Source of the DNA: Gammaproteobacteria bacterium
GTDB taxonomy: Bacteria > Pseudomonadota > Gammaproteobacteria > S012-40
Direction: 5' to 3'
NCBI GenBank assembly: GCA_027021445.1
Contig: JALUUH010000235.1
Coordinates: 1-64,000, forward strand
Length of the DNA: 64,000 nt
The translations under genes and the position numbers were made by a program. The notes under the pieces were generated by a model. It made no database searches and was not told the origin of the DNA. It saw only the letters and a list, made by a program, of their open reading frames with translations. This document shows positions 39,880 to 45,688 of this stretch, piece by piece (position 1 is the stretch's first letter; each line of letters starts with the position of its first letter).

Positions 39880-40353
39880 TTATTCTGAAATTTGCTCGTC
39901 AAATGTAAACATTAACTGCGAACACTTCTTTTTTAAACCAGGAGAGTCTGAGCTATTGAGCGATAAATTGCCTGCTTCATTAAAATGACATTCAATGGCA
40001 TTTTCTTCTTTATCTTCTCTTAGGGTAATGCCTTTGCCGGGTTTGTATTCTGCTTCGAGTACTCCCCCGTGGTAATAGGTGTAGCTATCTTTTGTACCCC
40101 AGTACAAGGTGCGTGAATGTGCTGCCATTTTATCAATTATGCTGGGCACTTCTTTGATGGTGTGAGTAGGAGTTTTACTGGTGCTTGCTTGCAACGGTGT
40201 TGAGCTGACCGGCGACAAGGGGCTGTCTAGGGTTGTGGGGCTGGTGGCGGTATTTCCAGGCGAGCTTGGTTTCGTATTTGTATTGGCGCAGCTCGCTAAT
40301 AAGAGTGTGGCGATTGCGTAAACTGATAATGTTTTAAAGTTGTGATGTTGCAT
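39880..40353 (-). CDS. Lipoprotein with one copy of a novel AEYKPxxG/ED/NAxEC domain
   Basis: Lipobox IATLLLASCANTN; domain similar to both halves of 40677..41462. Confidence 0.75.
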   Translation of the reverse strand: MQHHNFKTLSVYAIATLLLASCANTNTKPSSPGNTATSPTTLDSPLSPVSSTPLQASTSKTPTHTIKEVPSIIDKMAAHSRTLYWGTKDSYTYYHGGVLEAEYKPGKGITLREDKEENAIECHFNEAGNLSLNSSDSPGLKKKCSQLMFTFDEQISE

Positions 40354-40676
40354 GATATTCCCCCAATTTCTTGTCTTTAAATTATCACAGACAGAATCCT
40401 AGATTAATGGACAGTGCTAGTACTCATTCTAGACATCCATTCGGGTATTTCAGTTGATAGGATAGTCTGGAAGTGGTGACAGCTCTAAGATACATAGTAA
40501 AATACTCCGAAACAAGGGGTAGCGGAAAAGCAGATATAGGTTTAGCATGGTGGTTTGAGTGTTAAGTGGAGGAGTGAGTCGTAACTAATTGATTAATTGC
40601 AAGTTTTGTCGTTTTTATGAGGGTGGATTGGTACTCCCAAAAAAGTAGTTAGTGTCGCATCCGTTAAACTCACCTC

Positions 40677-41462
40677 TTACTCGGAAATCTGTTCATCAAA
40701 GCTTAGCATGAGTGCCGAGCAGCGATCGCGAAAATCAGATTTCTCTTTTTTCTTAACCTGAAGTCCCAGTTGCTCGTTGTAGTGACACTCTAAGGCATTT
40801 TCATCTTTGTCTTCGCGAAGGATTAGACCTGAGCCTGGTTTGTATTCCGCCTGTACAACTCCGCCCATATAGAAGGTATACATGCCTGTGTTACGCCAGT
40901 AGAGCGTGAAGTCGCTGGCGGCCATTTTATCGATGATTGTTTCGGGTTTTCGTTTCTTGGGAGCCGATTTTTTCTGGATTCGGGGTATAGGTGCTGCTCG
41001 TCTTTTAGTGATAGGATCGGGTATTTGCTGATTGAATGCGGTGACCAATTCGTTGCATCGGGTTTGAAATATCATGGCTTTTTGAGAACTAAGGCCGGGT
41101 ATTGAAAGGTCTCCTTCATCGTCAAAGCGACATTCTATGGCATTGTGGCTTCTATCTTCGGTTAACGTAAGCCCAAAGCTTGGTTTGTATTCTGCGGTAA
41201 GAATTCCATACATTTGTAATGTATAAGAATCATCTGATTTCGAGTAGCGGGTTTCTTTGTGTCGATCTATTTTGGCAATCATTTTTGAGATTGTTCGGTC
41301 ATCAACCGGTTCTATGCGTGGTTGAGAAAGCGAGGCAGCGAGGCCGATGATAGATGCTGATGAGCTGACGAGGAATGGGCTTGTGGTCTCGGCATTTCCT
41401 GTGCTCAGGGTAAAAGTTGCTATGCTTGCGCTAATGAGCAAAGTGTTTACTGTCCTTTTCAT
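40677..41462 (-). CDS. Exported protein with two copies of the same novel domain
   Basis: Signal peptide MKRTVNTLLISASIATFTLSTGNAE; AEYKPSFGLTLTEDRSHNAIEC and AEYKPGSGLILREDKDENALEC. Confidence 0.8.
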   Translation of the reverse strand: MKRTVNTLLISASIATFTLSTGNAETTSPFLVSSSASIIGLAASLSQPRIEPVDDRTISKMIAKIDRHKETRYSKSDDSYTLQMYGILTAEYKPSFGLTLTEDRSHNAIECRFDDEGDLSIPGLSSQKAMIFQTRCNELVTAFNQQIPDPITKRRAAPIPRIQKKSAPKKRKPETIIDKMAASDFTLYWRNTGMYTFYMGGVVQAEYKPGSGLILREDKDENALECHYNEQLGLQVKKKEKSDFRDRCSALMLSFDEQISE

Positions 41463-41515: not shown

Positions 41516-42238
41516 CTATTTTTTGAAATCAATTACTTTTTTTAAAGGAGATAGATTGATTTCATCAAAAACGGTTCCTTGCCGACTTTCTAGGATAAAT
41601 ACGATGGTATTTGCAAGGTCGTTAGTTTGAATGTAATTGTCTGCGTCTGGGCCCGGGGAGAAATCAAGCTGGTCAAAAAACGGTGTGTTAACCATGCCAG
41701 GATTAATGATTGTGACTCCAATATTTGAGCTTGAACATTCTTCCCGTATAGCTTGCGCGAACCCTCTTAAGGCAAACTTACTGGCGCTATAAATCGCCCC
41801 TTTTTTTCCTCCTTTTAATGCGGCTTCTGATCCTATGAATACAATGCTGGCATTTTTTTGTTGTTTCAGTCGAGGTAAAAACGCACGAACAACAAAAGCT
41901 TGGCTTGTAAAGTTGAGATCTATTAGCTCTTTAATCTGAGAGTAAGAAAACTCTTCGATGGAAGCAAATCTTCCTTTGCCGGCGCAGCAGATAACAGAGT
42001 TTATATCATTATGTTTTTTTTGTATGCTCTTAAGTTGCGATGGGAGTGTATCTAAGTCGAAAAAATCCACCGAAATAAACGTGAAATTATTATTGTTTTT
42101 AACTTCAGTTGGAATGCGTGAGCTATTTCTGGCCAAAGCAACAACTTGATAATTGCATTGTATTAAGCAAGACGCAATGGCTAGGCCTATCCCTGAACTT
42201 GCGCCGGTAATTAATATTTTAGATTGTTCTTTAGGCAT
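41516..42238 (-). CDS. Short-chain dehydrogenase/reductase
   Basis: ITGASSGIGLAIAS, CCAGKGRF, YSASKFALRGFAQ. Confidence 0.92.
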   Translation of the reverse strand: MPKEQSKILITGASSGIGLAIASCLIQCNYQVVALARNSSRIPTEVKNNNNFTFISVDFFDLDTLPSQLKSIQKKHNDINSVICCAGKGRFASIEEFSYSQIKELIDLNFTSQAFVVRAFLPRLKQQKNASIVFIGSEAALKGGKKGAIYSASKFALRGFAQAIREECSSSNIGVTIINPGMVNTPFFDQLDFSPGPDADNYIQTNDLANTIVFILESRQGTVFDEINLSPLKKVIDFKK

Positions 42239-43223
42239 CTAAGCACCGGAAATATTTTTTAGCAGGTATGTATTGAAGTAATATTTGCTCACAATAAAAA
42301 ATCATTTTATTCTCCAGGTCAAACTTATATGAAGTCATGCCATTCGATGATTCCATTGGCCCAGAAAAAATATGTTCTCTGGGATGCATTTTTATCAGGT
42401 TTTTAAAGAATTTATCCGGCATGCGAAAAACTCCAAGACTGACAGAATGCAATGCTGCTGTGTCAATGGCGGAAAAAATAGTTTCAAACATATTTTTATA
42501 GGCTTGTTCATAGCCGTCATAATAGATAATGGGATCAAAGCGTAAGCCAATCGTCCAGCCCTTGTTTTGCAGTTTTTTAATGGCATCAATCCGTTTTTGT
42601 AAAGAGGGGGTTTTGTGTTCTATTTTGTTAATAACATCCTCTGGAGAAATTGAAAATGCAACGATGCAGCGTGGGTTTGCCGACATGTCGAGTAGATGTC
42701 TTATTTGAGTGCTTTTGGTTCGCAGTTCTAAATAGGCGTTTTTTATATTCAATATTTCAGGGGTGAAATATTTTGCAAAGTGGGTAACGGGTTCAAGCGC
42801 TAAACTGTCACAATCATAGCCAGAAAAAAAGGCAACATCCTCACTATGCTGGCTGGCAACGGTTTTTATTTCAGTTATAAAGTCTTCATAGTTTACAAAT
42901 AAAACATAATGTGCGCTGCGATACATGCCTTGTAAAAAACAGTATCGGCAGTCGTAAATACAATTCATCATGTGTGAAAAGTAATAATTATGATAAGGGC
43001 CAATTCGGTAAGCATCCGGTGCTTGATGCACAAAGCGATTCATTTTTTTTGCTAAGATTAACGAAGGATTGTTTTTTTGTAGTCGAAAATTTTGTGCAGA
43101 CGGGTTGAATACCTCGCTGTAATGTGTGCAAATTATTTGCTCGGCATTTTTGAAACGAGCGAGTATCTGGCGGGTGCGTGTATGATCAATGATTTCTTCT
43201 TCGATATAAATATTTGAAATCAT
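42231..43223 (-). CDS. Spore photoproduct lyase (SPL)-family radical SAM protein
   Basis: MNCIYDCRYCFLQGMY (CxxxCxxC cluster in SplB-like context), VAFSISPEDVINKIEHKTPSLQKRIDAIKKLQNKGWTIGLRFDPII. Confidence 0.85.
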   Translation of the reverse strand: MISNIYIEEEIIDHTRTRQILARFKNAEQIICTHYSEVFNPSAQNFRLQKNNPSLILAKKMNRFVHQAPDAYRIGPYHNYYFSHMMNCIYDCRYCFLQGMYRSAHYVLFVNYEDFITEIKTVASQHSEDVAFFSGYDCDSLALEPVTHFAKYFTPEILNIKNAYLELRTKSTQIRHLLDMSANPRCIVAFSISPEDVINKIEHKTPSLQKRIDAIKKLQNKGWTIGLRFDPIIYYDGYEQAYKNMFETIFSAIDTAALHSVSLGVFRMPDKFFKNLIKMHPREHIFSGPMESSNGMTSYKFDLENKMIFYCEQILLQYIPAKKYFRCLDA

Positions 43224-44024
43224 TTATAGCTTCACTTTCTGTAGGGTGAGTAGGTTGTCGAGATATTGTAAAACCTGTTTGGCGTTTGAGTACTTATTCA
43301 ACTCTATATTTATGTCATTATTGGAATTTAGAGTAAGGCGGTCTAGTGCTTTTTTTAATTGATGTTGTTGAGTTTTTGTGAAGTGGAATGCAGTGGTTAG
43401 TTCATGATAATAAACAGGGGTTTGTTTTTCCAGTTGATATTCTTGCAGTAGTTCATTTTGTTGATCGAAATAAGTCAGAATGCTTGATAAGGCATTTCCC
43501 ATGAGTTCATGAACATAATTTTTATCGATATTTTTTATAGATTGTTGTTCATTGTCTGAGACGACTTTTAGGCAGCTGACTAATTCAGTCGTAGTGAATT
43601 TAATACATGTTGCATAAAAACCAGCTGCCTCCATGTCGTAGATGTTATTGTTTTTATAATTTTCAGTCGGCTGGTCAACGGTAATGAGTGGGCTGCTTTC
43701 GATTTCGGTTTTAATGATAAGTGGAGGATACCCGTATAGCATGCTGAAGTCAGCACTGACTTTATTCGCGATAAAAATACTTCCTATGGGTTTTTTACGT
43801 GCGCCGCATATTCCGATGTTTAACCAAGAGCAAACGGGGTTGTTAAATTTTGCATAAACATAGGCGCACGCGGCGGCCATATTGAGCTTTCCGATCCCTG
43901 ATATTATTAAAAGGATGTCATTTTTTTGGTGGATTTTAAATGGGTGATTTAGAATCGACTTCATACTGAAGTGATCGATGAAGGCTTGTGCTTCACATTG
44001 TAATGCGCATGTTATTATCCTCAT
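43224..44024 (-). CDS. Nucleoside phosphorylase/nucleosidase-like protein with C-terminal extension
   Basis: ISGIGKLNMAAACAYV, NIGICGARKKPIGSIFIANKV, YDMEAAGFYATC, KVVSDN. Confidence 0.82.
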   Translation of the reverse strand: MRIITCALQCEAQAFIDHFSMKSILNHPFKIHQKNDILLIISGIGKLNMAAACAYVYAKFNNPVCSWLNIGICGARKKPIGSIFIANKVSADFSMLYGYPPLIIKTEIESSPLITVDQPTENYKNNNIYDMEAAGFYATCIKFTTTELVSCLKVVSDNEQQSIKNIDKNYVHELMGNALSSILTYFDQQNELLQEYQLEKQTPVYYHELTTAFHFTKTQQHQLKKALDRLTLNSNNDINIELNKYSNAKQVLQYLDNLLTLQKVKL

Positions 44025-44843
44025 TTTGTTTCGCTCTCTGCAGTATAGATGGTACGTAATTTTATCAGATCTTCCACATCATGTTTTTTGTTTCGTTTGA
44101 TGGCACCATTCACGACGATGTCAATTTTTTTAATGAGCATTGCGACCGCATTTTGTTTATCTTCGGGTTTTAGCCGATGATATTGTAGTAGGTTGTCAAG
44201 TGCTCTAATTCTGAATCTATCCATGCCCCAATATTTTTGTGAGAGTTGATCTTCGTGGCCCCCATACTTCTTAATGAGTGCGGTATTGACAAATAATACC
44301 GGATATTTTGCGCAAATTTTCAACCACAAGTCATAGTCTTCGCAAGCGGGTAAGGATTCATCAAAACCAGAAAATTCATCGAGCAAAGAACGGTGTAACA
44401 TTATGGAGGAAGGAGACATGGCGCATAAGGTCAAACATTCGGAGAATATCCATCCGCCTGATTTTTTGTGTTTGTTTTTTTGGTTGACACGTTTGCCATT
44501 GCGAATCCATATTTCTTCTGTGTGACAAACAAAGTGATCTGTATTTTTGGATAGAACGTCGGTTTGCATTTTAAGCTTGTCAGGTAACCATTCGTCGTCA
44601 GAGTCTAATAGTGCAATCCAATTCCCGGTTGAGCGTTTAATGCCCTGGTTACGTGCCGAGCTTACTCCTTTGTTTGCTTGTGACACTAAAATAACATGAG
44701 GAAAACTTGCATGTATAAATTCTACACTGTCGTCATTCGAGCCATCATCTATAACAATAATTTCATGTGCCTTATATGTTTGATTGATGACAGATTGTAT
44801 GGCGCGAGCAATAAGGTGCTTGCGGTTATAGTTGGGGATAATA
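44021..44843 (-). CDS. Family 2 glycosyltransferase (start codon unclear)
   Basis: Upstream in-frame RISVIIPNYNRKHLIARAIQSVINQTYKAHEIIVIDDGSNDDS plus SSARNQGIKRSTGNWIALLDSDDEW; track start 44686 cuts off the N-terminus. Confidence 0.8.
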
Positions 44844-44865
44844 ACCGAAATACGGAATGTTGAAT

Positions 44866-45561
44866 CTAGGATTGTCTTTTCTCTGAACGATAAGGTGTGT
44901 TGCGAATTTTATCGTGATCATGCATGCGGTATTGACTAAAGTCTTTTTTATTGTCGAAGTGCATGAAAGGGTTGCCTGCTACCTGCTCTTGCATTGTCGA
45001 GGTTTGTTTTTCAGCGTAGTTATGGCCAGGGTGAATGATAGTGTTTGAAGGTAGATCAGAACCTAGTTGGCGTAGAGTATCGTACATGATATTGGGGTCG
45101 CCGCCCGCGAGATCGCAACGTCCGCATCCAAATACAAACAGGGTATCACCGGTAATTAAATCATTTTGAATGTGATAACAAGCTGATCCGGGTGTGTGTC
45201 CAGGTGTGTGTAATACTTCTATTTCTGTTTTACCGAGTTTGATGATGTCGCCGCCATGATGAGTGGTTGGTGTGTTCTCATATTGCCCCCAAAACTTAGC
45301 TTCTTGTTTCAATAAATGAATTTGAGTATCGATGCTTTGATTGAGTTCTTCTATGCCGTTAATATGGTCGTTATGACTATGTGTTAACAAGACATCAGTA
45401 ACGTTGATGCCTTTTTCTTTGGCGAGTTTGATGACTTGTTGCACATCCCAGGCGGGATCAACGATGGCTCCGCGATTGCTTTCTAAGTCTTGAATTAAAT
45501 ATACAAAGTTGTCCATGGGGCCAAGCTCTAGTGCATGTATGGCATGAGTTTTTGTGGTCAT
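44866..45561 (-). CDS. MBL-fold hydrolase, hydroxyacylglutathione hydrolase-like
   Basis: LLTHSHNDHINGIEEL, HTPGHTPGSACYHI, GDTLFVFGCGR; start at MTTKTHAIHAL. Confidence 0.88.
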   Translation of the reverse strand: MTTKTHAIHALELGPMDNFVYLIQDLESNRGAIVDPAWDVQQVIKLAKEKGINVTDVLLTHSHNDHINGIEELNQSIDTQIHLLKQEAKFWGQYENTPTTHHGGDIIKLGKTEIEVLHTPGHTPGSACYHIQNDLITGDTLFVFGCGRCDLAGGDPNIMYDTLRQLGSDLPSNTIIHPGHNYAEKQTSTMQEQVAGNPFMHFDNKKDFSQYRMHDHDKIRNTPYRSEKRQS

Positions 45562-45688
45562 TACGGTTTCCTTGAATATTCGAACTTGAGTTGCCATTTG
45601 GATTCTAAGGTGGATGCGTCGAGGTGTTTATCACCTGTGTTTTTTAAAGCATTGACGGTAGGTGGTCTATTTTTTATCATCGACTTAT

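Follow-up and report, generated by a model that had tools for sequence, protein, structure and literature searches.

Four consecutive minus-strand genes occupy positions 41516 to 44851 of the analysed window (the whole stretch of 64,000 nt), which comes from an uncultured gammaproteobacterial bin of about 67% completeness. They encode a soluble GT2 glycosyltransferase with an SDD-type metal motif (44021..44851), a nucleosidase resembling MTAN and futalosine hydrolase (43224..44024), a radical SAM enzyme of the spore photoproduct lyase (SPL) type with CxxxCxxC at residues 88–95 (42231..43223) and a classical SDR with TGASSGIG and YSASK motifs (41516..42238). The tight packing described in the initial annotation was reproduced in the ORF list: GT2 and nucleosidase overlap by 4 nt, nucleosidase and SPL abut (0 nt), and SPL and SDR overlap by 8 nt. 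Pfam assigned the SDR to PF00106 (3.2e-43), the GT2 to PF00535 and the SPL-type protein to PF20903 (1.4e-25), the last assignment being joined by an AF2 model, a residue alignment and a tree. The motif CIYDCRYCFLQGMY, pointed out earlier in the SPL-type protein, is present and nearly invariant in the alignment. The nucleosidase had no Pfam match above thresholds, and its NCBIfam nucleosidase matches were weak.

The GT2 gene has no ATG, GTG or TTG at its natural start, and its frame is open to 44869. The first canonical start (44686) would truncate the GT2 domain at its N-terminus, while ATT at 44851 opens ISVIIPNYN, the usual GT2 beginning found in relatives. Judging from the reading frame and the relatives' starts, translation likely begins at this ATT. 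It would be a rare start codon, unless there is an assembly error at that position.

The gene for an MBL-fold hydrolase lies directly upstream of GT2 on the same strand (44866..45597). In three genomes of the same family (L041, L042 and L046) it stands close or next to GT2, and it was absent elsewhere; such local synteny places it probably outside the module. PanE, also considered as a member, showed local synteny only. At 39880–41462, two adjacent secreted/lipoprotein genes share a repeated module (IIDKMAA...YWG/YWR...ECHYNE), and their homologues are found behind the SDR only in genomes of the same family.

Conservation and co-occurrence of the module

A uniform scan gave 33 cassette-type SPL loci in Gammaproteobacteria and Planctomycetota. 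The nucleosidase gene was directly upstream of SPL on the same strand in 29 of them, the SDR directly downstream in 19 and GT2 upstream in 15; all four genes stood together at 10 loci, some of the gaps being contig ends. This order is kept at 45–61% SPL identity across genera and phyla, far beyond chance. The initial annotation had proposed a pathway of four genes and had named rare adjacency as a finding that would speak against it; the adjacency found is frequent, and the set can be regarded as a real, conserved pathway unit that combines a radical SAM enzyme of the SPL family with a 5′-modified-adenosine-type nucleosidase.

Of the 95 genomes made up of the window's genome plus its relatives, 17 have SPL-like orthologues (45–61% identity). 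Ten GTDB contigs, that of the planctomycete Uabimicrobium among them, also carry such orthologues, and so do, at 47–54% identity, 7 of 199 genomes drawn from its phylum. None was present in 398 other genomes taken evenly from across the window's phylum. Among the 95 genomes, SPL (17), nucleosidase (16) and GT2 (17) occupy nearly the same set, with 15 genomes shared against about 3 expected (p ~1e-13 to 1e-14, uncorrected for kinship). Outside the window's own family p was still 1e-8 to 1e-9, with no further correction for kinship, and in Planctomycetota the association was weaker (p = 0.003). The three genes co-occur also when they are unlinked. Since gene order is conserved and the genes co-occur, a chance operon was ruled out.

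It should be noted that GT2 is present in several genomes though unlinked to the cassette, and the wider neighbours of these unlinked genes gave no consistent clue. In some Planctomycetota the GT2 family occurs although no SPL passed the cut-off applied, which makes GT2 less specific to the module in that phylum. By eye, the GT2 homologue of Planctomycetota (L098, L099, L101–L103) often adjoins a gene for a STAS-type anti-sigma-factor antagonist.

Fused genes were found at two points of the module. In Fusobacterium vincentii, nucleosidase and SPL-type enzyme are joined in one protein of 623 aa (HMM 7e-46 and 5e-98, respectively), whose gene is followed by an SDR of 33% identity; in genome G086, GT2 is fused to a nucleosidase-like domain. 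These fusions are strong and falsifiable evidence that the parts of the module cooperate. The F. vincentii replicon (NZ_CP084075, fusion at L108:5104-6975) is filed as a 2.1-Mb plasmid, yet it is chromosome-sized.

A human-faecal contig deposited as phage carries nucleosidase, SPL and SDR in order. Two human-faecal records (MT835514 and MT835770; L112 and L113), unverified and labelled 'Bacteriophage sp.', contain the SPL-type module together with housekeeping-like genes and are probably bacterial contigs; no cassette was found in IMG/VR, and a phage-borne module was rejected. Between its SDR and SPL genes, L112 has a gene of 160 aa that is a candidate decayed nucleosidase, with weak HMM support. 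Neither Fusobacterium nor the gut contigs have GT2 next to the core. The presence of the core in Fusobacterium and human-faecal contigs makes the question of its function directly testable in cultured bacteria.

Since these four genes are repeatedly found together in distant phyla, in some cases as fusions, it is very probable that they constitute an undescribed biochemical pathway. No description of the set was found in the open-access literature searched; the module is apparently undescribed, yet it is built from known enzyme families. PADLOC gave no match, and a defence system was rejected.

The SPL-type enzyme and its nucleosidase partner

The AF2 model of the SPL-like protein (pLDDT 85) matched SPL 4fhe over its full length in Foldseek (TM 0.85/0.83). 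It shares with SplB (TIGR04070, PF20903; PDB 4fhe/4k9r) the fold, the N-terminal domain, CxxxCxxC and Tyr96, the latter two being conserved in the SPL-type enzyme. Whether the catalytic Cys and Tyr of SplB are retained had been left as a check on the initial annotation, and they are not: the H donor Cys140 is replaced by Tyr in all 33 cassette proteins (Tyr136 here) and the relay Tyr98 by Phe in 32 of the 33 (Phe96 here). In addition, unlike SplB, the cassette comes without sporulation genes and with fixed nucleosidase, SDR and GT2 partners. Despite the full fold, a spore photoproduct lyase was rejected on account of these replacements, and the score of 110.2 bits is below the NCBI equivalog cut-off of 400.

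Four aligned rows have Gly, Ala or Thr in place of the adjacent Cys138, which is therefore not a catalytic constant and was rejected as the H donor. No invariant cysteine was found outside CxxxCxxC in the alignment of 33 sequences; the SPL of Clostridium has been reported to use another Cys, C74. The cassette proteins form a separate clade (support 100/99), and in more remote SPL-like proteins the Cys140 position is taken by Glu, Gln or His. Cys140 is kept in SplB, in a Nostoc protein and in one of two Roseomonas lyase_spl_fam proteins. In B. subtilis SPL, the C141A and Y99F mutants release about one 5′-deoxyadenosine per repair, and SAM regeneration is lost (PMC3742179). By analogy with these mutants, the loss of the Cys/Tyr relay predicts that the cassette enzyme should consume SAM stoichiometrically, one per turnover, with a 5′-deoxyadenosyl group released or transferred each time. 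SPL is a known DNA-repair enzyme, and this large sister clade, which lacks the repair residues and is bound up with nucleosidase, SDR and, in many cases, GT2 genes, points to novel radical chemistry.

The nucleosidase consists of a catalytic-type domain (residues 1 to ~190) and an extra C-terminal helical domain (~200–266). MTANs and futalosine hydrolase were the best Foldseek matches of its AF2 model, MTANs being at the top. The acids E11, E132 and D157 are invariant in 29 nucleosidases and were matched by motif to the MTAN triad, which we take to be Glu12/Glu174/Asp197 in E. coli MTAN numbering; both the fold and the triad are thus of MTAN type. By NCBIfam, futalosine hydrolase was matched by 24 of the 29 members and MTAN by 11, with scores far below the curated cut-offs (25–28 bits for the window nucleosidase against equivalog cut-offs of 124.7–161).

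Genome G063 (L051:7396-8058) has a non-catalytic nucleosidase remnant between GT2 and SPL, in which the helical domain is retained. G021 and G086 contain GT2 and nucleosidase without a cassette SPL; each has a divergent SPL-family protein, and they are the only other genomes of the 95 with a PF20903 protein above cut-off. The helical domain is missing in G021 and G086, as it is at one cassette locus (L030). Its retention in the decayed G063 gene and its absence where there is no cassette SPL suggest that it serves the SPL-type enzyme.

Possible pathway and alternative readings

Based on the above results, we tentatively favour a dedicated radical SAM pathway in which adenine is stripped from a 5′-deoxyadenosyl group, most likely on an acceptor, before reduction and glycosylation, though we rate it at somewhat less than even. 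The SPL-type enzyme would cleave one SAM per turnover and attach the 5′-deoxyadenosyl group to the acceptor. The partner nucleosidase would then remove adenine, the SDR may reduce a carbonyl, either the ribosyl aldehyde set free in this way or another one, and GT2, where present, may glycosylate the product. Building or repair of a modified nucleoside, as first proposed for these genes, is possible, but the nucleosidase could act equally well on the SAM-derived 5′-deoxyadenosyl group.

MqnE and MqnB are a precedent for adenosylation followed by depurination. There, too, a radical SAM enzyme is combined with a nucleosidase from the superfamily of the cassette nucleosidase, whose commonest match is futalosine hydrolase; however, the cassette radical SAM enzyme is of the SPL type and not MqnE, and the window nucleosidase reaches 25.6 bits against the hydrolase cut-off of 124.7. 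The linkage of a nucleosidase gene to a radical SAM gene, as in MqnE/MqnB and HpnH/HpnG, is seen here in the adjacency and in the F. vincentii fusion. The same gene logic of a radical SAM enzyme, a PNP-superfamily enzyme and a glycosyltransferase is found in the hopanoid C35 pathway, where HpnH adenosylates, HpnG carries out phosphorylase-type depurination and HpnI is the glycosyltransferase (PMC12583986), but no Hpn model was among the NCBIfam matches listed and no hopanoid genes were seen in the neighbourhood.

Adenosylation followed by depurination is supported by the conserved order, the unlinked co-occurrence, both fusions, the relay loss, the intact triad and the preference for futalosine hydrolase. 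Counting against it are the low scores of these futalosine hydrolase matches, the absence of GT2 beside the Fusobacterium and gut cores, the lack of a cassette SPL in G021 and G086, and the nucleosidase decay in G063, where SPL and GT2 are kept, so that depurination is either dispensable or performed by another enzyme. A more far-reaching version, which we consider somewhat less probable still, would be a new SPL-fold class of radical adenosylation and depurination in Gammaproteobacteria, Planctomycetota, Fusobacteriota and gut bacteria, with a glycosylated ribosyl-derived product and with the nucleosidase helical domain docking with SPL.

The nucleosidase could also simply clear 5′-deoxyadenosine, an inhibitory co-product freed when the SPL-type enzyme abstracts hydrogen, leaving the SDR and GT2 to complete the actual product. 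We hold this to be a serious possibility at about one chance in three, nearly tied with adenosylation, which is favoured. The predicted stoichiometric 5′-deoxyadenosine, the MTAN fold and triad and the SPL–nucleosidase fusion fit product removal, and the tolerated decay in G063, which argues for dispensability, is expected if other enzymes clear it. On the other hand, another PF01048 enzyme (MTIP-like by eye in G000) is present in most relatives, whether or not they have the cassette, and this argues against a mere housekeeping role. Moreover, many radical SAM enzymes work without a private nucleosidase, matches to futalosine hydrolase outnumber those to MTAN, and clearing gives no reason for the tight linkage of GT2 and nucleosidase, including their fusion.

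It is improbable that the SPL-type enzyme acts on a polymer base (tRNA, rRNA or DNA) which GT2 then decorates in nucleic-acid modification or repair. Characterised SPL does act on a DNA dinucleotide, and by eye a DusA-like gene (L049), a TmcA-like gene (L051) and SpoU-type methylases (L022) adjoin cassettes. Such RNA-modification neighbours, however, stand at only about 3 of the 33 loci, no RNA- or DNA-processing partner is conserved, and the substrates of the nucleosidase fold are small nucleosides.

That the enzyme is a UV-lesion repair SPL of non-sporulating cells with chance neighbours is very improbable, since, for all the shared full-length fold, CxxxCxxC and Tyr96, its clade lost the Cys140 and Tyr98 that Nostoc and Roseomonas lyase_spl_fam proteins keep, and its neighbours are conserved and co-inherited.

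The lyase_spl_fam proteins (TIGR03886) belong to the same superfamily and also occur in non-sporulating bacteria. Two of three aligned examples keep both residues, unlike the cassette protein, which scores 62 bits against their cut-off of 437.55, and their genes lie near par/rep or unrelated genes. Other SPL-family genes adjoin ParB/RepB-like partition genes (L077:5428-7558, L053:7738-10596 and L111:7-4420; repA-repB-spl-spl on a Roseomonas plasmid), which is a recurring context different from that of the cassette.
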